A DNA stretch of 40,076 nucleotides, from contig JAJQHD010000039.1 in assembly GCA_021199855.1 (NCBI GenBank), positions 1-40,076 on the forward strand, written 5' to 3'. This document shows positions 9,174-33,359 of this stretch, piece after piece. How positions within the stretch are numbered: position 1 is the first letter of the stretch; the number at the start of each line of letters is the position of its first letter. The DNA comes from Oscillospiraceae bacterium. Its GTDB lineage: Bacteria > Bacillota > Clostridia > Oscillospirales > Ruminococcaceae. The position numbers and the translations under genes are program-made. A model generated the notes under the pieces. It worked only from the letters and a program-made list of their open reading frames with translations, was not told where the DNA came from and did no database searches.

Positions 9174-10277
9174 TTAAGTAGATTGAGCCTGAAGCTCACG
9201 GCGAATATCGAGGGGAGAACGCCAGCCGAGAATAGACATGGGAATGCGATTGGAACGTCTCAAATAGCGTTTCATTTGGAGCAGCAAATCATCGAGGGAG
9301 TAGAAGCTCAAGTGATTGTAAAAGCGCTCTTGGTCATTTCTGTGACTTCGCTCAACCTTGCCGTTGTGCCAAGGTGTCCTTGGACGAATTGTCTTATGGG
9401 TAATATGCAGTTCGGAGCAAAGGTGGCCGAGGGCATGAACCCTCTTTGTTTTTCTCGTATTTGTAAACTCACCTCCATTGTCGGTTTGTATGATTTCGGG
9501 AATATATCCGAAATATTTAATAGCCCGTTTTACAAAATCAACAGTGCTGTAACAGCTTACTTCTTTGTAGGGATAGATAAATCTTTCCCTTGTGGCTTCA
9601 TCAATCATGGTATATTGATAAAAACAGTTCTCATATTTGCCGACATAGCAGGCTTTGGGGACGTTTTAATCCGCAACTTTCGCTCGCGAAAGTTGCCGCT
9701 TATCCGGATTTATGTCCGGTTCCGCGAAGCGGAATCATCGCGCCTCCTTTTTGCGCGATGAAGGACATAAAACGAGAGTTAGAAAGATTTATCTTTCTAA
9801 CTTTTACGTCCATCTGGCACTTCTTGCCCGGTAGCGTTGGGGTATCGTAATGACCGAGGTGTTTTGACTTTTTCTTAGTAGACTCCGCCTTTTCGCGATA
9901 ACCGAGGCGAACAAACACTCTGTACAGTGATCCGGGATGTCGGCTATATCCCCTTTCAAGAAGCTTTCCGTACATCTCTCCCACGGAAATATGAGGATTT
10001 CTGCGGTGCAGATTTTTTATCATCCTCAGTTCTTCTTCTGTATGGCTTTTTGGGTGCGGTGTGTGCGGTCGATGTGATTTCGGCATCAGCGATTCTCTCG
10101 TTCCATCATACAGCTTATTCCATCTCGTCAGAGATGTCTCATCAGAGACGCTTTTGATATGTGATACCGCCGGCATACAAACCCTATATCCTTTGTTTGG
10201 CGATATAATTCCACAGAATGCGTTTTTGTTGTTATTTCGTGTGGACAATACCTCTTGTTCTGTGCTATAATATTCAT
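9174..10277 (-). pseudogene. IS transposase (rve/DDE type), disrupted
   Basis: Starts at ATG 10277 (MNIIAQNKRYCPHEITTKTH), helix-turn-helix region (VELYRQTKDIGFVCRRYHIS), then an IS481/IS1202-like linker (EEELRMIKNLHRRNPHISVG) and integrase core DDE pieces: QMDVK, TDNGGEFTN, and GKVERSHRNDQERFYNHL. Between ASLMRH and WNKLYDG a 14-base imperfect tandem copy (CTCTGATGAGA / CTCTGACGAGA) shifts the frame near 10130. Between DVK and VPKACYVGKYEN about 135 bases of hairpins are inserted (9669-9801). Both lesions destroy the gene. Confidence 0.85.
9662..9801. repeat. Cluster of five hairpins inserted in the transposase gene
   Basis: Consecutive stems: GCAACTTTCG/CGAAAGTTGC (9673-9682, 9687-9696); CCGGA/TCCGG (9704-9708, 9715-9719); TTCCGC/GCGGAA (9720-9734); CATCGCGC/GCGCGATG (9736-9743, 9753-9760); GTTAGAAAGAT/ATCTTTCTAAC (9778-9788, 9791-9801). 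In addition TTTATGTCC (9710-9717 region) pairs with GGACATAAA (9763-9771), enclosing stems three and four, and CGTTTTA (9662) pairs with TAAAACG (9768-9774). It interrupts the transposase between DVK and VPK. Nature unknown: a tiny non-autonomous element is my best guess. Confidence 0.75.
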
Positions 10278-10278
10278 G

Positions 10279-10338
10279 GGCTGAGGTTCCTTTCTGCTTT
10301 TATTGATTTGCCACATCTATTGTAGCAGTTCCTCAGCC
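10279..10338 (+). terminator. Possible terminator inside the IS right end
   Basis: GGCTGAGG (10279-10286) pairs with CCTCAGCC (10331-10338), followed by seven T on the forward strand. The loop is long (44 bases). It would limit forward readthrough into the cargo promoter region. Confidence 0.35.
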
Positions 10339-10383
10339 TTTTTTTCTATACCTTTCAGTCTCACTTTTATTGTAACGCTACAA

Positions 10384-10407
10384 CTGATAATTGCGATTTT
10401 TCACAAA
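10384..10407 (+). repeat. 24-bp direct repeat, right copy (target duplication)
   Basis: Second copy of the repeat at 9004-9027, abutting the ACAA end of the IS. It stands 6 bases upstream of the -35 box of the cargo promoter, so the IS landed right beside the control region of the defence-like operon. Confidence 0.8.
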
Positions 10408-10412
10408 TATTA

Positions 10413-10441
10413 TTGATTATTCGCGGATAGTGTGCTATAAT
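10413..10441 (+). promoter_or_regulatory. Sigma-A promoter of the cargo operon
   Basis: TTGATT (10413-10418), 17-base spacer, TATAAT (10436-10441): a near-consensus vegetative promoter. The small XRE gene starts about 50 bases downstream with AGGAAAG, and the four-gene operon follows with no other clear promoter in the 125 bases between. Confidence 0.8.
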
Positions 10442-10491
10442 GTGTCTTAGTTTGTGCGGTTACTATAGAGAATCAGAAAGGAAAGATTGGT

Positions 10492-10710
10492 GTGGCAGTT
10501 TCATACAAGAAATTATGACATTTGCTTATCGACAGGGATATGAAAAAGAAAGACCTACAAGAAGCAGCAAATATGACCAATCATGTGATGAGAAAACTAA
10601 GTCACAATGAAGCAATTACTAAAGATACCATTGCCAAAATATGCAAATGTCTCGATTGTAAGGTGGATGATATTATGGATGTAGTCGAATTAAGCAGTAG
10701 TGAAGAGTAA
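10492..10710 (+). pseudogene. Small XRE/HTH_26 regulator with nonsense codon at the conserved Trp
   Basis: GTG start 10492 with AGGAAAG upstream reads VAVSYKKL, then TGA at 10516-10518, then HLLIDRDMKKKDLQEAANMT and a full Cro/CI-type helix-turn-helix ending near CKVDDIMDVVE. In this family the peptide is normally SYKKLWxLLID, so TGA stands where TGG (Trp) belongs. A TTG at 10522 could start a version lacking the first nine residues. These ~70-residue regulators commonly sit before defence operons and autorepress. Loss may leave the operon derepressed or dependent on the shorter form. Confidence 0.75.
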
Positions 10711-10835
10711 GCGGATAATGCATTCAAATTAAATCGCCTAAACAGAAAACGTCAAATTGCCTTATAGCGTTGTAGCGACATTTCCACATCGCTGTTATGA
10801 CAAGCAAATTTCGCAATGAACAGGAAGATACATGT

Positions 10836-13800
10836 ATGACACCAAATAGAACTATCCCTTTTCGCCCTAAATTGGAGGGAGAGTTTAGAACAAGATTCTA
10901 TACAGTCGTTCAGCAAATCAATGAGGATACAAAAACCTCCGAACTGGAGGAAATCATTGCTCAGGAGGTTCACTGGACTGAACACGAGTGTACCGTAAAT
11001 CTTGTCCAAAGAAAAAAATACAGAGCGGTTTGGATGCTGCTTCGTGATCTAATGAGGGCTTCTTGGAAAGCGTGCTATCGTGAAGGTGTCCTTGAAATGC
11101 GTATGCCGACCTTAGATAAAAATGAACTCGAAGGTAGTTCCTTATCCGAAAAGAAAAGCCTTTTGAGGGGGTGGATGCAAGATAGCCGACTTGAAAGACT
11201 ACAAATTTATTCTGACTTCATCAATCGAATGGAAAAGGATACAGCAACGAAAAAATCCATCAGTCATTTAATTGCGGATGGAGAAGAACTGTATGCTCGA
11301 CTTCGTGCAATTTCTAATAACGAGATAAAAATAGGAGATGCGATTAAACCATATCTTCAGCTAGTCCAAGAGAATGAGCGTGACGAATATACAGGGCAAA
11401 AGCTTTCTGATATTTGGAGGTATTTTAGGCTCACTTGGTCAACACCTGCAGAAACAACTCCCGGCAGAACAATGCAGTATCTCATCCGAGATGCTGCACA
11501 TCCAAACCACGCTGTTATGGGAATTGCGTCGTTAGAAAATACTGCGGTCCAAATAACCTGTCGAGATGATTATATTGGCTGGAATGCTCCATCGTTTATA
11601 GACAAGCTTAAGGCTGAAGGAAATCATACTACAACTCGAAATGCATTCAAAAAGCTCCTGGAATATTTGGATGACGGTATTCAGGGAATTGATTATTTTG
11701 ACCTATGCGCTTCTGCGGACATCGATAATCCTTCTGAAGATGTTATTCGTAAATTACAATACATTGCTTTGACTGCAGAGGAAGAGCGTCAAGAACTACT
11801 TAAGGCATATCAGAGTGGAAATGCTGAAGCTATGTCAGAAGAAAAAAGTGAGTTAGGTAGCATTTCAAAAGAAATTGAGCAAGCACTCTATCGCAGAAAA
11901 AGAGCTGACCAGCTTGGAAAATTACTTGGAGCAAAAAAAGCTTTAACTGATCTTATTAGCAATGATAAGTTTGAAGATCTTTGGAAAACGTTTTGTGATA
12001 GCGATAATGGTAAATCTCACATTAGAACGTCTCTCATTGCTCAAAAAACTAAGCATATAGGTTCAAGTATGATGGAACTCAACGTCTGTGGTGCTATTCC
12101 TCCATATAACGAGATTCTTGGAGGAAAGCTTGTGGCTCTGCTTGCTACTTCGCCACAGGTCATTAGTGATTACCGAGATCGTTATTCTGGCAAAAAAAGC
12201 GAAATTGCCAGTCGACTAAAGGGAGAAGATGTTTATAGACCGGCAGACCTTGTTTATATAGGCACAACATCATTGTACTATGTAGGCTCAAGTCAATACA
12301 ACCGCTTAAAAATCCCTGGAAGCCTTTTCAATTCCACTCACGATGTTAAATGGGAAAAACTGGGGAAAACCGTTGGCTTTGGTACGCTTCATATAAGCAA
12401 AGCCACTACCATGTGTCTCACGGAAGCAACGAGTGATGGTTTCTCTAGGATCAATCATGTATTCGGAGAAGGCGCAAGTCCAAAAATGCGATTGATGACC
12501 ATGGCAATAAGGGAACTTCTCGAATCAGACGAAAATGATACGAAAGAATTCTCCAAACACGCAATGTCTAGAATTGTGTATGGTGCCGAATTAGCAAGTA
12601 ACACCAGGGATTATTTACTTGGAATCGATGAGTCGCCAAGCTATTACTTCAACACGAATGATTGCCAAAGTGAGACTCAAAAGATTGTTGATTTCTGGTT
12701 AAATCGTTGGGTCGCAAGTCGCTTGAATTACACTCCTATTTTTGAGCGAATCCGGTGCTTTGATAAGAAACATTTTTTGGTAAGTACTGATTTAAAAAAG
12801 GCATCAGAATGGAAATTTGAAAAGCTAAAGGAGCCTGAAAAGATGGAGCAAATACAGCATAGTAAAGCTGGACTCGATTCAATACGCGATTTTTACCGTG
12901 GTAGTAGCGGATACGCCGACTTTATGGACTATGGCTTTTTATCGAAGGTTCACGTTGCTACAGATTTGGATTCGTCAATTGTTGAAGCCGTAAATGCAGG
13001 AAAAGATGTGGTTCTTACTGGAAATCCCGGCGATGGCAAAACACACATAATTCGGATTCTCCAAGAGCAGTTAAGTACTCTCAAAGTTAATCCTATCATT
13101 GAACTGGATGCAAGTACAATGACAAACAAAGCTATTTACGAGAAATGGTTATCTGCTAGAGAAACGTCACATCCATTCGTAATCGCAATTAATGCAGCTG
13201 TTTTGCTTGCGTTAGCGCAGGAATTTCCATCATTTTCTCCTATCGTTGATGCAAAGGAACAGATGATTAGCGCGATAGTCTTTCATGATGAACAGATTGA
13301 AAATGACAAGGTATCAGTCTTCGATCTGAGCAAACGGGAAACTCTCGAACCATCTGTAGTCAAAAGTGTTATACTTAATATGACGAAAGCAGAGCATTTC
13401 GTGCAATGCGAGACTTGTCAATTCAAAGAACTATGCCCTGCTATCAAGAATGCGCAGCTAATTCAAAATGATTTGTTCCAGGAGAGACTCAATGTTATTT
13501 TAACCCAAGTTGCTCTACAGGGCTATCACGCCACATTGCGCGAATTGCAATCATTTGTTTCATTTTTAATTTTTGGCAATAGGAATTGTGCAACACTTAC
13601 CACAACCTCCGGCCAAGATGAGTACGATTTGTGTAACCTAATCTATCAAGGCGACGGTCGTTTATTCGGTGCAGTCAGAGGTGCTTTTGATCCTTCAAAG
13701 GTCTCTCATCCTGTTTGGGATGAAAAAATTCTCATGAACACATTGGAAGTAGAGTCGTGGATACCAGACTACAACGTCTCTCCTGAAGCGTTGAATCTAA

Positions 13801-14432
13801 ACAACACTGAACTGTTTGCGTTACGCAAAAGACAATTCTATTTCTTCAACTCCCATGGAAATGTATTGTTAGATATCAGCGATGATGCCGTTATTAAATT
13901 TCAACATTTCTTGGGCATGGAGGATAAGTCTATCATAAAAGATCTTATTCAAAAGCTGAATGCATTTTTCGGTACTTCCTCCACAAATTCCGAACTGGAA
14001 ATATGGATGAGCCACCGATATAACAATGCTCCCCGCAAGATACTTATTTCTACCGGAAAAATGAAGCGCTCCGATTTTAGAATTGGACACCCTAGACTAA
14101 ATTCTGTAATGGAAAATGGCATTAAAATGGTGGAAAATTATGTGCGTCTTGAGAAAAAAGACGCACCAGAGATCTTTTTAAAAATAGATTTTGATATGTA
14201 CAACTTTCTGCTTGAGGCGGAAAGAGGCGTTCCGGTATTGCTCATGGAATCCGATACAGTGAAGAAGGTTTGGCGCTTCGTAGAGCAACTCCAAAGTGAG
14301 AAGGCCTTAGAAACTGAGGAAGATGTGACGCTTTCCTTGTTTGACGTTCAAGGAAAGAAGGAAGTTACTGTTACGATTGACCGAGAAAGTAAATGCTATT
14401 CTAGTATCACTGTAAGGAAAAGCCACAACTGA
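10836..14432 (+). CDS. DruA (DUF4338)-like domain fused to DptF-like P-loop ATPase
   Basis: 1198-residue protein, first gene of the cargo operon. I chose ATG 10836 because AGGAAG ends 8 bases upstream; an ATG at 10797 has no ribosome binding site. Residues ~210-560 resemble Druantia DruA/DUF4338: GRTMQYLIRD...MGIASL...CRDDYIGWN (~210-248), CGAIPPYNEILGGKLVALL (~415), GTTSLYYVGSSQYNR (~475), INHVFGEGASPKMR (~538). The C-terminal ~480 residues form an NTPase with Walker A GNPGDGKTH (729-737), an FVIAINAA strand and a cysteine cluster CETCQFKELCP (~858), as in the Dnd restriction ATPase DptF. The domain calls come from memory of motifs. No signal peptide or membrane segments; presumably cytoplasmic. 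Likely a nucleic-acid sensor or motor regulator working with the FtsK-type protein. Confidence 0.6.
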   Translation: MTPNRTIPFRPKLEGEFRTRFYTVVQQINEDTKTSELEEIIAQEVHWTEHECTVNLVQRKKYRAVWMLLRDLMRASWKACYREGVLEMRMPTLDKNELEGSSLSEKKSLLRGWMQDSRLERLQIYSDFINRMEKDTATKKSISHLIADGEELYARLRAISNNEIKIGDAIKPYLQLVQENERDEYTGQKLSDIWRYFRLTWSTPAETTPGRTMQYLIRDAAHPNHAVMGIASLENTAVQITCRDDYIGWNAPSFIDKLKAEGNHTTTRNAFKKLLEYLDDGIQGIDYFDLCASADIDNPSEDVIRKLQYIALTAEEERQELLKAYQSGNAEAMSEEKSELGSISKEIEQALYRRKRADQLGKLLGAKKALTDLISNDKFEDLWKTFCDSDNGKSHIRTSLIAQKTKHIGSSMMELNVCGAIPPYNEILGGKLVALLATSPQVISDYRDRYSGKKSEIASRLKGEDVYRPADLVYIGTTSLYYVGSSQYNRLKIPGSLFNSTHDVKWEKLGKTVGFGTLHISKATTMCLTEATSDGFSRINHVFGEGASPKMRLMTMAIRELLESDENDTKEFSKHAMSRIVYGAELASNTRDYLLGIDESPSYYFNTNDCQSETQKIVDFWLNRWVASRLNYTPIFERIRCFDKKHFLVSTDLKKASEWKFEKLKEPEKMEQIQHSKAGLDSIRDFYRGSSGYADFMDYGFLSKVHVATDLDSSIVEAVNAGKDVVLTGNPGDGKTHIIRILQEQLSTLKVNPIIELDASTMTNKAIYEKWLSARETSHPFVIAINAAVLLALAQEFPSFSPIVDAKEQMISAIVFHDEQIENDKVSVFDLSKRETLEPSVVKSVILNMTKAEHFVQCETCQFKELCPAIKNAQLIQNDLFQERLNVILTQVALQGYHATLRELQSFVSFLIFGNRNCATLTTTSGQDEYDLCNLIYQGDGRLFGAVRGAFDPSKVSHPVWDEKILMNTLEVESWIPDYNVSPEALNLNNTELFALRKRQFYFFNSHGNVLLDISDDAVIKFQHFLGMEDKSIIKDLIQKLNAFFGTSSTNSELEIWMSHRYNNAPRKILISTGKMKRSDFRIGHPRLNSVMENGIKMVENYVRLEKKDAPEIFLKIDFDMYNFLLEAERGVPVLLMESDTVKKVWRFVEQLQSEKALETEEDVTLSLFDVQGKKEVTVTIDRESKCYSSITVRKSHN

Positions 14433-14443
14433 GGAGGAACATC

Positions 14444-15910
14444 ATGGAAACCATTTATTTGAAAGAAATAAGAAAGCAAGTAGACAAGCGATTTGTAGGC
14501 TTTGGTCCTAACGGTTCAGCCGTTAAGCCTGTTCATATATACAGTGGTGCCTCTCGCATTATCTATGGCGAAAGCGTTGATACACAAAATATAAAACGAC
14601 TTTCCTACGTAACCGGTTCAAAGGGAGAGGTTCCCAAAAGCAATACCCTTGATAGTGTCAAAGAATTTTTGCGTGAAAGCGATGCGCTCGATGAAGGAAT
14701 TCAAGATGATGATTTGACTTCTTTTAGAAATCTTTTGCAAAAATTGCTTGATGCGGACAATGGCGTGTTCTATAGTGTTAATGGTGATTTGGTTTCGTAT
14801 ACTGCTGGATCTAAATATTTCATTACCAATTACGTAATGTATGAGGATGCCGGCGAATTTGTTGGAAGCTTAATCAACAAATGCTGTCCTGAGCTTCGCA
14901 AGCATATAAAGGATATATTGGACAGTGAGAATGATCCAATTAGTATCCTCTTTTTGCCTGTTGCTGAAGCCAACACAAAAGCTATTGCCTCGGATCATCT
15001 TGATGAAATTGAGATATTTACTTCTCCCAACGACGAGTTTAACGATTTCACGACAGGCATTGCTGATGCTGGTAAATGCTTGTACAAGCATTTATGCAAT
15101 CATCCTAATCAACTCACGCAACTACGCATATTCAATTTCTTCTGCATTTATGTACTCATCAGATATTTAGCATCCTTGGAGTCATTCTATTGTGAAGGAA
15201 AAAAGCGACCGTTCCTCCTTGACTTTTCTGACGAAGCTTCTAGCAGTGTTGCGCAAGCTTCCGTTATGTCCTACACTCAAATTCACAGAGCTATTTCGAG
15301 ATTTTACTCGTGGGGATATGCACAGTGCCTGAAGGAAGAAGGCATGACAAAGGCTGACCTATTAGAGATAGACGCACCGATGCTAGATAAAAAAGGTAAA
15401 ACGAAGGTTGGAAAAGTCGATCTGTCCAGAATGTGGGATTTAGCAAAAGCAGACGCAAAAGAACTTCCGGAAGAAGATGCGCTTCTCGTTTTTGGAGCAA
15501 CGATATACGATATGCTTGCACTAGAAGCATCCTCTCATCCTGTTGTGTACCTTCGACAACTTGGTACACACGCTGGTCTGCTTTATCCGCCAACCAATTT
15601 TCATGTAAACAAGCGCTTCGTTATTTCTCAGGATATGCTTGAAATGATTATGCGTTCCTGTGTTGAGCCAAATGAATCACTCGTTGCCACCGAACTGAAG
15701 GATAGACTGTGGAATAGATTCGGAATTGTTATTGGAGGTGATGAAATCGACATGGAAAGAATTCATGTCACTGGTAGCATTATCTCTGCGGATGCAGACT
15801 CTCTTCGTAATAACTTTGCTCATTTTTCAGAAACACTTGAAGCCATTAACTTCGCTGATATTATGGCTGATGGTATATTACAAATTAGACTGGGAGGCGT
15901 TTCTAAATGA
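14444..15910 (+). CDS. Unrecognised protein in the DptG position
   Basis: 488 residues, no domain I can name. The start ATG has GGAGG 6-7 bases upstream, 11 bases after the previous stop; the stop overlaps the next start (ATGA, 15907-15910). Predicted mostly helical and soluble; segments such as GVFYSVNGDLVSYTAGSKYF and VVYLRQLGTHAGLLYPPTNF look like folded-core strands, and there is an acidic patch near residues 85-105. In Dnd/Ssp restriction loci the middle gene between the F ATPase and the H motor is DptG/SspG of about 400-450 residues; this gene has the same place and similar size, so I infer an analogous adaptor role, not proven homology. Confidence 0.5.
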   Translation: METIYLKEIRKQVDKRFVGFGPNGSAVKPVHIYSGASRIIYGESVDTQNIKRLSYVTGSKGEVPKSNTLDSVKEFLRESDALDEGIQDDDLTSFRNLLQKLLDADNGVFYSVNGDLVSYTAGSKYFITNYVMYEDAGEFVGSLINKCCPELRKHIKDILDSENDPISILFLPVAEANTKAIASDHLDEIEIFTSPNDEFNDFTTGIADAGKCLYKHLCNHPNQLTQLRIFNFFCIYVLIRYLASLESFYCEGKKRPFLLDFSDEASSSVAQASVMSYTQIHRAISRFYSWGYAQCLKEEGMTKADLLEIDAPMLDKKGKTKVGKVDLSRMWDLAKADAKELPEEDALLVFGATIYDMLALEASSHPVVYLRQLGTHAGLLYPPTNFHVNKRFVISQDMLEMIMRSCVEPNESLVATELKDRLWNRFGIVIGGDEIDMERIHVTGSIISADADSLRNNFAHFSETLEAINFADIMADGILQIRLGGVSK

Positions 15911-18900
15911 AAACTAAGCAGGAAATACTTGTCGATGCCTTGAGTGCAAAACTAGAAAGCGCCAAGATAGGCGTGATTGTTCGTGGAATTACTGATATAG
16001 ACCCTGTTGCCGCCGTTGAAACACTCTCTCAAAATAAAAAGACCAAATACTATGCTTCGATTGTCGGCTATAGTTTTTCCACGTCATATGAAACATCTTT
16101 GCTCGCAGTGTCTCACATGATTGAAGATGCCGTAAAATGGCGCAGTGATCCTTCTCTCACCGGAAAAATTGTTGTCTTTGTTAAAAGCGACAGCGACAAA
16201 CTGCACTCACTTGCTGAGTTTGATGAGGTTACGACAAGAGACCTATCACTCCAACTTGTTGAGGAACGCATCTCTGAAGCTCAAAATGCACCCTGTACAG
16301 AGTTTTGGAGTGCACTTAAGGAAACATCATCGTACTATTCCTTTGATATTCTTTATGAGTTTATAGAAGCAGTATGTCAGCGCCCTGATGAAAATGCTGC
16401 GATTCCTATGAATATGTGGCATTTGGGCTTACTTTGTGATTATCGCATCCTAAACACTAACATTAACCCAGAAGAAAGACTGTCGCGTAATAGAGACCTT
16501 ATTATCATAATCGGACAGTTGAGCGATGAATCAAGAAAGAAAATTAGCAGTTCATTGACTCGCAGCAACAATGAAAATAATGTCGAATTGCAAACTGCGT
16601 ATCGGCATCTGCAGGAGTATTTTAAGTATGGTAGAAAAGATACACTGAAGTTGTTATCCTATGATATTGTTCAGCAATTAATCAATCCTAAATCTAAGAA
16701 AAAGAAAATCACAAATGAGCAGAATAAGTCCAACAACAATGACAAAGAATCAACTACTATATCGCCGTTAAAAACTAAAGAAATCGACAAGCTAATTTCA
16801 GATGTCATTGTCAACCCTACAGAAGAGGGTCTGGAAACACTGCACGATTTCTTTGATGAACTCAAAAAAAGATATGATGAGAGCAGCAAAGAAAACAAGG
16901 ATACCTTCCCAACTATTGGAGGAGTATTCGAAAATCGACCGATTGTTCTGAATAACCACAATCCTCAGTTTAGGCGAATCATAGGGACCGCTTGCAATGA
17001 GGTAACTTGGGGAGGCATAATGGTTACTGAAGAAAGTGTTCTTCGTGATGCTATGTCTTCTGATTATGAGTCGTTTGATCCATTTATTCCAACAGAAATT
17101 GATTCTAAGACTAGTTTCGACGGTTCATCTCTTTTTGGGCTTATTCACAGATTTGATGAACAATTTACGGCAGAAAAACTAGAGGATATAGAGACTTTTA
17201 CTCCTATCATCGAAAAACTGTCTAAAGCAAGAAATTACTTAGTAAGTAATATCGATTTGATAATGTACCACCCTATATTGTCTTTTGGTATAGATGAAAA
17301 ACTCGGAACTGCTTTAGAGGATTACATGAACGCATGGACGGATTTACTTAGAGTATACTGTAGAGATGAAATCACCATGCATCAAATCAGTCCTAAAGTG
17401 ACTGTGTTCATCGCAAGGTCTCTCCTACTTTTAGACGTTTTGTATGTGAAAACCCCTACAGAATGGAAGGGTATGCTGCTTCCAACGCATCCTATGTTCC
17501 TGTGGCGCTATTATGAAGTTTTTAAAGAACTTAAAACCCATAGAAATCTAATGAGCGAAGAAGATGAAAAGGAATTAAAAGAAGCAATTTCCAATCTTCC
17601 ACAAATACTCAACTTCATCGTTGTGGATAAGTCTATAACCAATAGCGTTAGTGTTGCGCTTCCTTGTTCTGGAAGCATTGAGATGCTTCCTTCATATGAA
17701 AACAAAACAAACAGATATTTAGGATATGACGGTACTGAATCTATTCCAGAAATTCTTTCACGTTGGGTGGCGTTTGCGCCATACACTAGCAAAGAAGTAC
17801 GCATCTGTACTGTTGATGCCCCTGATATGTCAAGCATTCTCAAGGCATTCAAGGAAAGCATTGAAAAAGGAATATGTAGTCGAATTGTCTACGACGCATA
17901 CCTGACACGGTCACAAAATGGAAACAGTGAGTTATCAAGATTAGACTACATGGTTTCCGATTATGAGGTTAGTGAATATATCAAATCCGATAAGATTTCA
18001 ATCAGCATTCAGAATCTTGCTTCATCTACAGAGGTTAAATACGCTTTAGAAAAGCGACCTGTTCACCTTGCCTTCTATTTCGATCAGTCCTCTTATTCGA
18101 TCGAGTATGGTCCTACATCAAAGAACTTATATATCAGTCCTTTAGTTGTTACTTATGATTATGGCTTTGATGAAATAACTCAACGTGGCGAAATCTTTCC
18201 ATCTTCCAATATGGAATCTGGAATAATTGGAAACTATCACAAAATGCTTCGTTTCGCCGATGTTGTCTCTAACGACATGAGTCCTCGCCCAACATACAAT
18301 CCAGAGACTGATATTAGTGCTGTGCTGTCAACCATTCGTGACGGTGATACACAATGGTTAATTGCTGCCGATCGAACAACAAACAATTACCTACCGATTG
18401 ACACAATTCCTATTGGCGGAAAGCAATACGGAAAAAGAATGGTTAGTATTTGGAGTTCTCGCGACTCGCGTATAATTAGTCAATATCAATCCTTGCTGAG
18501 ACAATACAACCTTCATCCGAAAAAGGAAACTCTTATTGATATTCTTTCTCAGTTTGGACATATTTCGTCTGAAGGACTGATGAGCATTCCTCGCTACGGC
18601 ACTGACGCACAAACCATCGATAATCGTAAAAAAGGGTTTATTGGCACTGTATTTGTAGCCACATGGTACTCTAAACTGCATAAGAACTCTCTTGTAGCCT
18701 CTCTCGATACACCTGATGCTCGTCAGTGGCTTAATGATAGCCATTATCCCAACGATAGGGCAGACTTAATTGGCTTGTATTATGATGAAGAGGAACAGAT
18801 TCTTCATGTTCAGCCTATTGAGGTCAAGACAAGGGACGAATCCCCTGATGCAACAATTACAGTTGATGAAAAGACAGGAGACAAATATATTAACGGACAC

Positions 18901-20616
18901 GCAGCCGAGCAGGTAGCAGCCGTTGTTAGAATGCTTAAGGAAATCTTTGAACTTGTCGAAACCGATTCTTTAAATATGTTTGTCTCTGCGAGGCGCGAGA
19001 TACTGAAATATCAGATTGTTTCTGAATGTTTCCGCAATATACACGATCGTGTATGGCAAAAGGAATGGTATAAAATATTCAAGAAAGCCTTTGCTCCATC
19101 TGAAAACAGAACTATTAAAATCGATATATCAGGTATACTTGTCCATGTTAAGCTAAGTGAAACTGTAGCACAAAAACCGATTGATTGTGTAAATCCAAAG
19201 CTTGATGATTGCCATATTCGTTTTGTCGAACTGACATCCAAGGAAATTCAGGAACAGGTATTGGGCAACTGTGAAAGCATTGTTCCTGCTTGGACATCCG
19301 TTGATTACGACGATACCGAAATTAGAGTGGCAGAAGAAATCGAGCAAGAAGAAGACATGATTGACAACTCTGATAATGAGTTCGATACGCCTCAAGCACA
19401 GGTTGAGCTTTTTACTTCTACAGAAGAAACCATTGAGGGAGATGTTAAGCAAGACGAAACTGGAAGTGCAGACACAGCCACATCAACTAGTGATGAATCT
19501 TCTCCTGCAGAACACGTTTCTCTTGAAGAAATTGAGCAATTAGTGTCTGACTTTAAAAAATCGTGTCGTGATTACCATATCCAACTTAGAGAATGCTGCT
19601 CCGCGAGTGAAGCAGTTGTAGGACCGAGTGTTATCAGAATATACTTCAAACTCGCTCGTGGACAAGCCTTATCTGCGCTTAATAGCAATCTTGAAGATAT
19701 TTCAAGAGAAATGAAGCGTTCTGGTGCGTTAATCCAACAAATTCCAAACTCCGACAAACTAATTTTAGATGTGCCAAGGTCAAAGCGCGAAATGGTTCCA
19801 TTTTCAGAGGTTATTGAAAAGCTCCCATCAGTTGATTCTCCTGAAAAATTGTACTTCCCGCTTGGAAGAACTCCTGAGGGCAAGGACATTATCAAAGATC
19901 TTTCTGAATTGCCTCACCTTCTTGTCGGCGGTAGCACTGGATCAGGCAAAACTGTATTCTTGTTTACTATGCTTGCAGCTTTGCTTAAAACACACCCTAC
20001 TGCAAATGACCTACAGATAGTTTTATCCTCCTCAGGCTTGGAAGACTTTATTCGTTTCGAAGGAATTCCCCATTTGGTTGGCGGCAAGGTAATTTCTGAT
20101 GCCGAAGAAGCGACAGAAATCATCAAGAGCGTGGTATTTACGGAATTCGAGCGTCGTGAAAAGATATTAACAAGCGCAAGAGTTGCGAATATATCACAGT
20201 ATAATCAAAAATGCACACCAAAGATTGCCCCTATGGTAGTCGTCATAGACGAATTCGCTGACTTAGCAGATCAACTCGAAACTAAGAAAGATAAAGAGGC
20301 TTTCTTTACGCCGGTAAAGCGAATTGCACAAATCGGTCGTAAAAGAGGTATTCATTTGGTACTATGCACACAACGTCCTGCAGCCACCCTTGTTCCGTCC
20401 AACATCAAATCACAGTTTGGTGGCAGACTCGCCTTGCGCGTAAATGATGCTACCTCTTCGCGAATGATTTTAGAAGAAGGAGGCGCACAATATTTGCAAA
20501 ATCACGGCGACATGATTTACAAGAACGGTGCTGAAGTGGAAAGAGCGCAAGGCTATTTTATCTCTATTGATGAACTGGATGAAATTGTAGAAGGAATAAA
20601 GCGGCTCAATGAGTAA
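15907..20616 (+). CDS. DptH-like giant protein: PD-(D/E)XK-like motif plus FtsK/HerA motor
   Basis: 1569 residues. The C-terminal ~240 residues are a FtsK/HerA-type DNA translocase: Walker A GGSTGSGKT (1341-1349), Walker B MVVVIDEFADL (1443-1453), then IGRKRGIHLVLCTQRPA and SQFGGRLALRVNDATSSRMI, all classic FtsK motifs. In the middle, RADLIGLYY and PIEVKTRDE give D953...E972-x-K974, a possible PD-(D/E)XK nuclease core. An acidic, Ser/Thr-rich linker lies at about 1140-1210. The long N-terminal half (1-940) has no domain I recognise. Size and layout match DptH/SspH, the motor protein of phosphorothioation-dependent restriction. It starts in the ATGA overlap with the previous gene (GGAGG upstream) and its stop overlaps the nuclease gene. 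Probably tracks along foreign DNA. Confidence 0.7.
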   Translation: MKTKQEILVDALSAKLESAKIGVIVRGITDIDPVAAVETLSQNKKTKYYASIVGYSFSTSYETSLLAVSHMIEDAVKWRSDPSLTGKIVVFVKSDSDKLHSLAEFDEVTTRDLSLQLVEERISEAQNAPCTEFWSALKETSSYYSFDILYEFIEAVCQRPDENAAIPMNMWHLGLLCDYRILNTNINPEERLSRNRDLIIIIGQLSDESRKKISSSLTRSNNENNVELQTAYRHLQEYFKYGRKDTLKLLSYDIVQQLINPKSKKKKITNEQNKSNNNDKESTTISPLKTKEIDKLISDVIVNPTEEGLETLHDFFDELKKRYDESSKENKDTFPTIGGVFENRPIVLNNHNPQFRRIIGTACNEVTWGGIMVTEESVLRDAMSSDYESFDPFIPTEIDSKTSFDGSSLFGLIHRFDEQFTAEKLEDIETFTPIIEKLSKARNYLVSNIDLIMYHPILSFGIDEKLGTALEDYMNAWTDLLRVYCRDEITMHQISPKVTVFIARSLLLLDVLYVKTPTEWKGMLLPTHPMFLWRYYEVFKELKTHRNLMSEEDEKELKEAISNLPQILNFIVVDKSITNSVSVALPCSGSIEMLPSYENKTNRYLGYDGTESIPEILSRWVAFAPYTSKEVRICTVDAPDMSSILKAFKESIEKGICSRIVYDAYLTRSQNGNSELSRLDYMVSDYEVSEYIKSDKISISIQNLASSTEVKYALEKRPVHLAFYFDQSSYSIEYGPTSKNLYISPLVVTYDYGFDEITQRGEIFPSSNMESGIIGNYHKMLRFADVVSNDMSPRPTYNPETDISAVLSTIRDGDTQWLIAADRTTNNYLPIDTIPIGGKQYGKRMVSIWSSRDSRIISQYQSLLRQYNLHPKKETLIDILSQFGHISSEGLMSIPRYGTDAQTIDNRKKGFIGTVFVATWYSKLHKNSLVASLDTPDARQWLNDSHYPNDRADLIGLYYDEEEQILHVQPIEVKTRDESPDATITVDEKTGDKYINGHAAEQVAAVVRMLKEIFELVETDSLNMFVSARREILKYQIVSECFRNIHDRVWQKEWYKIFKKAFAPSENRTIKIDISGILVHVKLSETVAQKPIDCVNPKLDDCHIRFVELTSKEIQEQVLGNCESIVPAWTSVDYDDTEIRVAEEIEQEEDMIDNSDNEFDTPQAQVELFTSTEETIEGDVKQDETGSADTATSTSDESSPAEHVSLEEIEQLVSDFKKSCRDYHIQLRECCSASEAVVGPSVIRIYFKLARGQALSALNSNLEDISREMKRSGALIQQIPNSDKLILDVPRSKREMVPFSEVIEKLPSVDSPEKLYFPLGRTPEGKDIIKDLSELPHLLVGGSTGSGKTVFLFTMLAALLKTHPTANDLQIVLSSSGLEDFIRFEGIPHLVGGKVISDAEEATEIIKSVVFTEFERREKILTSARVANISQYNQKCTPKIAPMVVVIDEFADLADQLETKKDKEAFFTPVKRIAQIGRKRGIHLVLCTQRPAATLVPSNIKSQFGGRLALRVNDATSSRMILEEGGAQYLQNHGDMIYKNGAEVERAQGYFISIDELDEIVEGIKRLNE

Positions 20617-21304
20617 CTCTTCTGTTTATTCATCTGAGTTAAAAGCCGGACAATTCATTAGTGAAAGCAAAAACAGATTCCTCTGTACTGTAAAGATTGA
20701 TGGTATAGAGGAAGTCTGTTATATTGCGTCGTCCTGTCGCCTAGATAATTTTATTGATTTGCGAGGCAAAAGGGTCCTTTTGCTGAAAAATAAAGGAGCG
20801 AAAGGAAGAACGAAGTATTCTGTTGTCGGTGTGAAGTATAAGCGGAGTTACATAATTCTGAACAGTTCTTGGGCGAATAAAGCAGTCGGCGAAGGCTTTT
20901 TGAAAAGAAAATTTTCTTTTTTAGGCAAGCGAAAGGATTATCGAGCAGAAACTGATGTTAATGGCTACAAAGCAGATTTTTTCATTCCGAGTTCTAAAAC
21001 TTTAATAGAAGTCAAGAGCGTTATATCTACAAGTGAAATCGCAGCATTCCCTACGGTGTATTCTGAACGCACATTAATTCAGTTAGAAAAGATAGCCGAA
21101 CTAATTGATGAAGGATATAAAGGCTATTTTCTTATAGTCTCGCTAAATCCTTATGTCAAGGAAATTAAGCTTATTCAAGATACCGAGGTTGCAAGGCAAC
21201 TAAGTGAATGTATTGTACGGGGGCTGATTGTTAAAGGCTTCCGCTGCCGTCTTTCCGACAACGGATTACCACAGATTACAAATGAAATACCAGTTCAAAT
21301 ATAA
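20609..21304 (+). CDS. SfsA-like DNA/RNA nuclease
   Basis: 231 residues, the usual SfsA length. The N-terminal OB-fold half reads GQFISESKNRFLCTVKIDG...SSCRLDNFIDLRGKRVLLL; the typical NTGRL is changed to SSCRL. The C-terminal half has the restriction-like active site: ADFFIP (D123) and LIEVKSV (E134, K136), followed by AAFPTVYSERTLIQLEKI, matching the SfsA pattern IEVKSVT..FPD..(T)ERG..H. SfsA proteins are Mg-dependent nucleases of poorly known role. The gene starts inside the end of the FtsK-motor gene (20609 versus stop 20616), so the nuclease is translated together with the motor: likely the effector of this system. Last gene before a terminator. Confidence 0.8.
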   Translation: MSNSSVYSSELKAGQFISESKNRFLCTVKIDGIEEVCYIASSCRLDNFIDLRGKRVLLLKNKGAKGRTKYSVVGVKYKRSYIILNSSWANKAVGEGFLKRKFSFLGKRKDYRAETDVNGYKADFFIPSSKTLIEVKSVISTSEIAAFPTVYSERTLIQLEKIAELIDEGYKGYFLIVSLNPYVKEIKLIQDTEVARQLSECIVRGLIVKGFRCRLSDNGLPQITNEIPVQI

Positions 21305-32391: not shown

Positions 32392-33359
32392 CAGATTGCA
32401 CCTCCAATCCGACGATATGCCATCTCGGTGAACTCAGGATTTAACTCAATGCCGACGTAATGCCTGTTCATCTGCTTGGCGGCCATGCCGGTTGTGCCAC
32501 TTCCCATGAATGGATCAAGCACAATTCCGCCCTCCGGGCACCCGGCAAGAAGACAGGTCTCAACCAGCTTCGGCGGGTATACTGCGTAGTGATTGCCCTT
32601 GAATGGAACGGTGTTGATTACCCAGACATCCCGCTTATTTCTCAACGGATTTATTTCGTCGTCGGAAATTGAGCCATGCTCACGAGGACGGTTAATCGGC
32701 TGTGACTGAGGCTGACCGGGTATTGCTTTTCCAAACTTGTTGTTTTCACCTACGGCACACTTGAGCCTTTTCCTTGTTGCGGGTGCAATCGGTTCGGATA
32801 TTGCCTTGTAGTCGAAGTGATACTTTCGAGACTTTGAAAAAAGAAAGCTATGCTCATAGCATCTGGCGCAGCGGTCTTTGACACTTTCTGGCGTTGGATT
32901 CTTTTTTATCCAGATTATGTCGTTTCTTGGGTACCGGCCTGAATCACGAAGTGCAAAAGCAAGCATCCACGGAATACCTATCATGTCTTTGGGCTTGCAG
33001 CTCCCAACCTTGTTGTTGAGAGCTACAGTCTGACCGTTTCTGCCCTTCGGATTCTTTGGATCGATGGAGCTTCCTTGATTGTTCTTTCCGGCATGGGTGT
33101 CGGAAATATTCAGCCAGAGTGTTCCGTCAGAACGCAAAACTCGCCTGACCTCCGTAAAAACATCAGTCAAGCGAGAGATATATTCTTTCGGCGTTTCCTC
33201 TCTGCCAATCTGTCCCTCAATACCGTAATCACGCAAGGCGTAATACGGAGGAGATGTAACGCAGCAGTTTACGCTTTCTTCGGGAAGTGTTTTCAACACA
33301 TCAAGACAGTCGCCGGTGTAAATGGTATCAATCTGAATATGTATCATCTCCCTTCGCAC
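32391..33359 (-). CDS. Site-specific DNA methyltransferase (beta class, N4-C or N6-A)
   Basis: 322 residues. Catalytic motif IV TSPPYY at 35-40, SAM-binding motif I DPFMGSGTTG at about 282-291, order IV...I as in beta-class enzymes of the D12/N6_N4_Mtase type; VGIELNPEF follows. The middle (about 150-250) is the likely target recognition region. No restriction endonuclease gene adjoins, so it is an orphan methyltransferase, common in these ICEs where it protects the element from host restriction. Start uncertain: GTG 33359 or ATG 33347. Its stop touches the CD1108-like gene. Intact, unlike most neighbours. Confidence 0.88.
   Translation of the reverse strand: MRREMIHIQIDTIYTGDCLDVLKTLPEESVNCCVTSPPYYALRDYGIEGQIGREETPKEYISRLTDVFTEVRRVLRSDGTLWLNISDTHAGKNNQGSSIDPKNPKGRNGQTVALNNKVGSCKPKDMIGIPWMLAFALRDSGRYPRNDIIWIKKNPTPESVKDRCARCYEHSFLFSKSRKYHFDYKAISEPIAPATRKRLKCAVGENNKFGKAIPGQPQSQPINRPREHGSISDDEINPLRNKRDVWVINTVPFKGNHYAVYPPKLVETCLLAGCPEGGIVLDPFMGSGTTGMAAKQMNRHYVGIELNPEFTEMAYRRIGGAI

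Follow-up and report, generated by a model that had tools for sequence, protein, structure and literature searches.

The 40,076-nucleotide stretch of DNA analysed here (hereafter the window), which is the entire contig C7 (JAJQHD010000039.1) of an Oscillospiraceae genome of 2,313,355 bases in 58 contigs (GCA_021199855.1), carries a four-gene operon that we assign, from sequence comparison, to the DndFGH kind of module, in a form led by DruA and with SfsA as an optional nuclease. Its first gene fuses a DruA (DUF4338) part to a DndF/SspF-type ATPase (F), and it is followed by genes for a G-like protein, an H-like translocase-nuclease and an SfsA-type nuclease. A preliminary description, made from the DNA letters alone, had proposed that the operon mixes parts of Druantia and of the DndFGH/SspFGH modules, and this is borne out by matches of gene 1 to the PADLOC models of DruA (3e-126 over residues 55-654) and SspF (6.5e-18 over residues 737-951) and of gene 3 to SspH (4.2e-59, residues 1202-1562).

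The DruA part of gene 1 also matches the Pfam family DruA (2.6e-33), and C431, P436, Y437, G443, K444, Q500, Y501 and further residues are identical in 89 of 89 aligned rows, irrespective of a link to F, G and H (the window being counted twice). The F core aligned over 434 columns with a combined DptF set (hhalign 99.7%, 1e-26); this Dnd comparison set consists of F, G and H from Priestia (locus L118, a record with dndB, dndC and dndD beside dptFGH), Levilactobacillus (L119) and L033, with G from L034 in addition. Of the 71 F rows (the window again being counted twice), all have the Walker A lysine K748 and 70 have Asn799, and a Walker A combined with Asn at the Walker B place is a feature named for the DndF core by Rakesh et al. 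(2024; PMC10853773). The fold predicted for gene 1 (from position 10836, 43-row alignment) had a mean predicted local distance difference test score of 87.6 and a predicted template modelling score of 0.59. Unrelated folds of genes 1 and 3 in structure searches had been named beforehand as grounds for doubt; in the search, run on gene 1 with VIA-align 2, residues 677-955 fell among AAA+ ATPases (STAND Avs5, TnsC, ORC) with modest Z, and the matches listed, which were also consulted for an acetyltransferase (GNAT) fold of the DruA part, span the F part alone. In one large group of loci a single gene encodes DruA and F, and in another the two are neighbouring genes; there are exceptions, such as the close kin L097 and L106, which differ in this respect.

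Gene 3 matches FtsK_SpoIIIE (9.7e-30) in addition to SspH, and with a profile its motor was related to solved FtsK at 1.2e-79. All 54 H rows, near-copies and the chimeric L048 included, agree at residues D934, D953, E972, K974 and Q1002, and a Walker A is present in each of them, with a sequence and place that vary in L060, L088, L100, L102, L105 and L112; such variation fits the 'HerA/FtsK capture' of Rakesh et al. (PMC10853773). In hhalign comparisons, residues 771-1015 aligned with the combined DptH set (95%, 3e-8), the motor aligned at 82% with H of L033 and at 18% and 13% with the others, and matches to DptH N-terminal of residue 771 stayed at 5% or less. Gene 3 keeps the residues of a restriction endonuclease (REase) and of an FtsK motor, and both activities are predicted for it. 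Gene 4 matches Pfam SfsA (4.6e-14) and SfsA_N (4.3e-9) and is a relative of the solved SfsA 4dap (1.3e-14), with D123, E134 and K136 kept in 38 of 38 rows (near-copies included, and two rows fetched twice). Like the DNA/RNA nuclease SfsA (TIGR00230), it has the two Pfam domains and these D, E and K residues, but its 63 bits lie below the equivalog cut-off of 126.45 bits for that family and it is operonic with DruA, F, G and H.

While the DruA-ATPase fusion, the FtsK-motor protein and the SfsA-like nuclease of the preliminary description were all recovered, its 'unknown protein', gene 2, is, as judged from profile comparison, a divergent DndG/SspG-like protein whose divergence lies outside the C-terminal domain. 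The Pfam scan gave no family for it and PADLOC a weak SspG match (0.0081), and its C-terminal 107 columns align with the SspG-type G of L033 (hhalign 96%, 2e-9) and with G of L034 (94%). By homology, it is a putative winged-helix DNA-binding subunit; the G protein of DndFGH/SspFGH has three winged helices, and gene 2 aligns at the C-terminal domain, with G of L033 and L034 only. The operon has in common with DndFGH/SspFGH the order F-G-H, the Walker A and the Asn in the Walker B place of F, the C-terminal domain of G and an H in which the REase residues precede a HerA/FtsK-type motor. DndH carries SWI2/SNF2, beta-sandwich, target-recognition and inactive methylase domains at its N-terminus, and the window's H aligns well at residues 771-1015 only. 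Differences from ordinary DndFGH are the link to DruA in all four strong gene 2 matches described below, DruA being often a separate gene, the recurrent SfsA, a DruA common to Druantia type I, and the absence from most genomes of phosphorothioation genes, which typically, though not universally, go with DndFGH/SspFGH.

The same gene order was found in other genomes, a check that the preliminary description had asked for, and DruA-F-G-H recurs as a conserved module in 57 of 80 loci. These loci were gathered with a six-row DruA alignment and comprise the window, 4 loci on viral contigs and 75 distinct genome-contig loci, which were drawn from the top 80 of 128 matches; 72 of 79 DruA rows are left after dropping those less than 5% apart. 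F is present in 65 of the 80 and F together with G in 59 of these 65, some loci being cut by contig ends. In the tree, rows with F include Bacillota, Chloroflexota, Acidobacteriota, Verrucomicrobiota, Pseudomonadota, Bacteroidota, Spirochaetota, Actinomycetota and haloarchaea, with many metagenome-assembled genomes (MAGs) among them, and full operons occur in the cultured bacteria Anaerotruncus colihominis DSM 17241 (L062), Exiguobacterium sp. s193 (L068) and Cohnella sp. REN36 (L039). Since the order is conserved across loci, and since the distances between loci in DruA, F, G and H are correlated (pairwise Spearman 0.60-0.78, a level reached in none of 500 shuffles, with 27 to 55 loci for each pair of proteins and H taken as its first 1150 residues), we do not regard it as a product of chance.

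In the inverse search, the gene 2 profile was compared with 398 genomes of the phylum and matched in 13. Four of them, namely the window's genome, G212, G309 and G039, match strongly (474-576 bits), and all four have DruA fused or adjacent. The other nine match weakly (24-51 bits), in the part of the profile that starts at position 258, and show no match to the DruA part at 1e-10, G274 and G243 matching in the F part only. Among 197 genomes of the window's family, the profile had no match outside the window's own genome. SfsA, which had been described as the fourth gene, turned out to be frequent but exchangeable and not constant: it accompanies 35 of the 65 loci with F, is usually the last gene, stands first in L039, L040, L042 and L056 and lies on the opposite strand in L078, and its history involves at least four gains or losses (FastTree of 46 H rows).

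Some loci depart from the common layout. L048 (10037-14455) has a single frame that joins gene 1 residues up to about 720 to gene 3 residues from about 822 (L044 numbering), so that F is missing for the most part, and G and the N-terminal half of H are missing altogether; as it stands on a MAG contig, it is either a natural mini-form or an assembly error. In L072, a second DruA gene (9785-11836) follows SfsA behind a DruA-F-G-H set whose first DruA frame holds a stop. Short DruA-type frames of 374-450 amino acids occur in several genomes of the phylum (L005-L012, L014, L015 and L019), and G344 has two of them, 68% alike in DNA over 434 bases.

As had been described, the four genes of the window are intact and form one operon, with a gap of 11 bases between genes 1 and 2 followed by overlaps of 4 and 8 bases (Table 1). 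Gene 1 has 1211 amino acids when read from its first ATG at 10797 and 1198 amino acids from the second, which is the start used in the preliminary description and close to which the frames of near relatives begin. Absent from the earlier gene list is a small helix-turn-helix gene upstream of the operon, a possible regulator, homologues of which stand upstream of DruA in 18 other loci (near-copies among them); because TTG is its sole opening and its 5' end is short compared with L035, it is perhaps truncated in this genome.

Table 1. Features of the operon and the gene upstream of it (window positions)
Feature	Position	Strand	Remarks
Small Cro/C1-type helix-turn-helix (HTH_26) gene, possible regulator	10522..10710	+	Pfam HTH_26 1.9e-14
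Gene 1: DruA (DUF4338) + DndF/SspF-type P-loop ATPase fusion	10797..14432	+	likely start ATG 10836
DruA domain of gene 1	10836..12866	+	residues 14-690; PADLOC DruA match
DndF/SspF-type core of gene 1	12867..14429	+	residues 691-1211; Walker A 741-749; Asn799 in Walker B place
Gene 2: divergent DndG/SspG-like protein	14444..15910	+	488 amino acids; C-terminal hhalign match to SspG-type G
Gene 3: SspH/DndH-like translocase-nuclease (predicted)	15907..20616	+	1569 amino acids
REase (PD-(D/E)XK) region of gene 3	18706..19005	+	residues 934-1033; D953, E972, K974, Q1002
FtsK-type motor part of gene 3	19510..20592	+	residues 1202-1562; Walker A 1342-1349
Gene 4: SfsA-type nuclease (predicted)	20609..21304	+	231 amino acids; D123/E134/K136

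The question arises how such a module might work. From our point of view, to which we lean with some reserve, it would be a standalone restriction machine on a DndFGH-type core, in which DruA and G recognise, F switches, H pumps and cuts, and SfsA serves as a second nuclease. DruA and G would recognise a feature of foreign DNA, be it a site without the host's mark or an intermediate of replication or transfer; with this recognition as a switch, the F ATPase could load or license H, which would then pump along the DNA and nick or cut it; and SfsA may degrade the products or act as a back-up effector. In Druantia type I, DruA would have the same role, the machine behind it being the DruE helicase with DruB-D. 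DruA is a plausible, putative target recogniser, and DruA-like sensing in place of phosphorothioate guidance, as proposed in the preliminary description, is a possibility. The gene content and its recurrence in bacteria and haloarchaea suggest a self-contained destruction of invading DNA by the module, for which anti-phage activity is likewise plausible. We favour this reading because the order is kept in 57 of 80 loci, all strong gene 2 matches stand beside DruA, gene distances are correlated, residues of H, SfsA and F are invariant, DptF has a homologue in F and DptH in the REase region of H, DndC is rare and the context is one of mobile elements and defence. The DNA nickase and translocase activity of DndFGH (PMC11662687) speaks for it as well, as does the evasion of type I Druantia by phage through site-specific methylation (PMC12904381).

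Several observations weigh against it. Because the DruA profile was built from DruAs linked to F, G and H, the 65 of 80 loci with F represent an enriched sample, and F is missing from 15 loci, of which 3 lie at the end of their contig, L090 has 2.3 kb downstream, and 11, the chimeric L048 among them, have 3 kb or more. The gene 2 profile gave no alignment with the canonical DptG of L118 and L119 or with the combined four-member G set (0.4%), and H aligned with DptH at the REase region only, and weakly at the motor. SfsA distances are weakly correlated with those of the other genes (0.19-0.28, with 0 to 3 of 500 shuffles as high), and SfsA was not found in 30 of the 65 loci with F, partly because contigs end. 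In a survey of the flanks (189 representatives of 241 open reading frames of at least 250 amino acids, compared with PADLOC), models of PbeA, from a phosphorothioation-linked system, matched 3 of 97 representatives. A search for DndC (TIGR03183) covered 49 module genomes, namely the window's and, for the other 64 loci with F, 48 more (some are MAGs and may be incomplete); matches over the cut-off came from two, the genomes of L040 and L050, where they lie on a different contig from the module. Lastly, since a DNA methylase is encoded on the window's contig, protection by modification is conceivable.

It could also be imagined, with a lower probability that we would still take seriously, that DruA is an optional back-up effector, a GNAT-like enzyme, on an ordinary DndFGH machine whose F, G and H alone recognise the target. 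This would be in line with Rakesh et al., who read DUF4338 as a GNAT co-effector of DndF and who see parts for DNA binding and sensing in DndF, DndG and DndH (PMC10853773). However, in the small unbiased sample of this G clade no strong match is without DruA (4 of 4 have it, the window included), one large group has DruA as a gene of its own immediately ahead of F, and the distances of DruA follow those of G and H, whereas SfsA comes and goes. Furthermore, the same long DruA, with the same invariant residues, leads Druantia type I (DruA-DruB-DruC-DruD-DruE), compared with which the window has F, G and H in place of DruB-E: no match to DruB, DruC, DruD or DruE was found among its open reading frames, i.e., those of the whole contig, with the L085 proteins as queries and one profile round. 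In L085 (1-12572), a Druantia I operon of DruB, C, D and a 1857-amino-acid helicase, which belongs to a cluster called DruE1 by PADLOC in L023 and L026, is followed by this long DruA and then SfsA, without F, G and H; in L084 and L090, which have the homologous set of DruB, C, D, E and A, SfsA is absent.

A wider form of our preferred reading is that DruA is a portable target-recognition subunit of two unrelated DNA-destroying machines, the YprA-type helicase DruE and the FtsK translocase-nuclease FGH, that it frees the DndFGH-type machine from phosphorothioation, and that haloarchaeal loci with DruA, DruE and FGH are dual-effector systems; as a whole, we consider this possible but rather doubtful. 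A DruE homologue stands beside DruA-F-G-H in six of eight haloarchaeal loci, upstream and divergent in L023, L024, L081 and L133, which look closely related, and downstream in L086 (partial, at a contig end) and L135, and was not found in L104 or in L134 (broken frames); the six could possibly be dual-effector systems. DruAs without F, G and H are few, and a single origin for them was not rejected. One protein family (MzaB-like in L026) recurs beside them in L026, L027, L038, L095, L096, L098, L101, L107, L108, L109 and L111, in some of these loci with DruE, and may perhaps form another DruA-led system with DruA. MADS (mad1-mad8) offers a more distant likeness, as gene 2 matches MAD7 weakly (0.11) and the gene 3 motor matches mad8 (4e-22); within the PADLOC match limits, none of the four proteins matched the MADS methylase or other mad models.

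The genomic context bears on two further explanations. One is that the operon is a restriction arm that relies on a separate methylase, of the same element or of the host, to mark self, which we consider improbable. The window encodes an N6_N4 DNA methylase (32394-33359), and type I Druantia can be evaded by phage through site-specific methylation (PMC12904381), but the methylase lies about 11 kb from the operon on the opposite strand and is in none of the flank clusters of at least four loci, among 25 listed (the recurrent clusters being partly annotated), and methylase models match few flank representatives (MTase_II 2 of 92 and IIG 2 of 97, among the first 25 families listed). The other, to which we likewise give little credence, is that the operon serves a mobile element in the control of competing elements and not in phage defence. 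The window holds conjugation-type genes (relaxase domain, TrbL/VirB6, topoisomerase and ArdC-like), and the module is also carried on plasmids and on IMG/VR contigs. In other systems, transferred DNA is a substrate of FtsK-type motors. However, relatives of the operon also stand beside Tn7-like genes (in L031 and L032, the module has a glmS-like gene on one side and Tn7-type genes on the other), and further defence genes neighbour them, the flanks matching restriction, Lamassu and candidate-defence models. In L041 (6433-9620) and seven other loci, some of them near-copies, a two-gene pair of 437 and 560 amino acids lies upstream of the module; it is PDC-M68A/B-like, the second gene being also LmuB-like.

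That the operon is an ordinary phosphorothioation-dependent Dpt/Ssp module with modification genes elsewhere in the genome is very improbable, despite the homology of F, G and H to DptFGH/SspFGH parts and the two genomes with DndC, since DndC over the cut-off was not found in 47 of the 49 genomes, the window's included (SspB and SspC were not searched for). Weak DndC matches occur in 12 further genomes, and the two weak matches that were examined are best matched by BrxP. One of these two is the only DndC-like match of the window's genome, which was thus rejected as DndC; it marks a BrxP (BREX-type) gene elsewhere in that genome (L117; G000:C54:25802-26272). No Dnd/Ssp modification genes are among the first 25 of 113 and of 203 PADLOC families listed for the flanks. 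The earlier statement that phosphorothioation genes do not accompany the module can as such be extended, as far as DndC goes, from the window to most of the genomes searched.

The operon had been called undescribed, a claim that we do not uphold because Rakesh, Aravind and Krishnan already list, in one clause, DUF4338 among the variable N-terminal domains fused to some DndF proteins and argue that DndFGH stands alone (PMC10853773). What is known already is hence the DUF4338-DndF fusion, and the DruA-led clade with SfsA is a variant of the DndFGH kind. The names DruA, Druantia and SfsA were not found in the main text of that article, which is the only one among the literature matches listed to bring DUF4338 together with DndH or DndF. 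For the constant DruA link, the separate-gene form, SfsA, the DruA common to Druantia I and the haloarchaeal double loci, no earlier account was among the literature matches listed, supplements and most subscription papers being outside the search.

Overall, the module bears on the question, raised by Rakesh et al. (PMC10853773), how DndFGH-type machines choose foreign DNA without a modification module. As the clade in which DruA is linked to F is present in cultured bacteria, the targeting of DndFGH and the role of DruA in Druantia I become testable together. If DruA indeed proved to be a portable recognition subunit, a DndFGH-type machine would be able to select foreign DNA without phosphorothioation.

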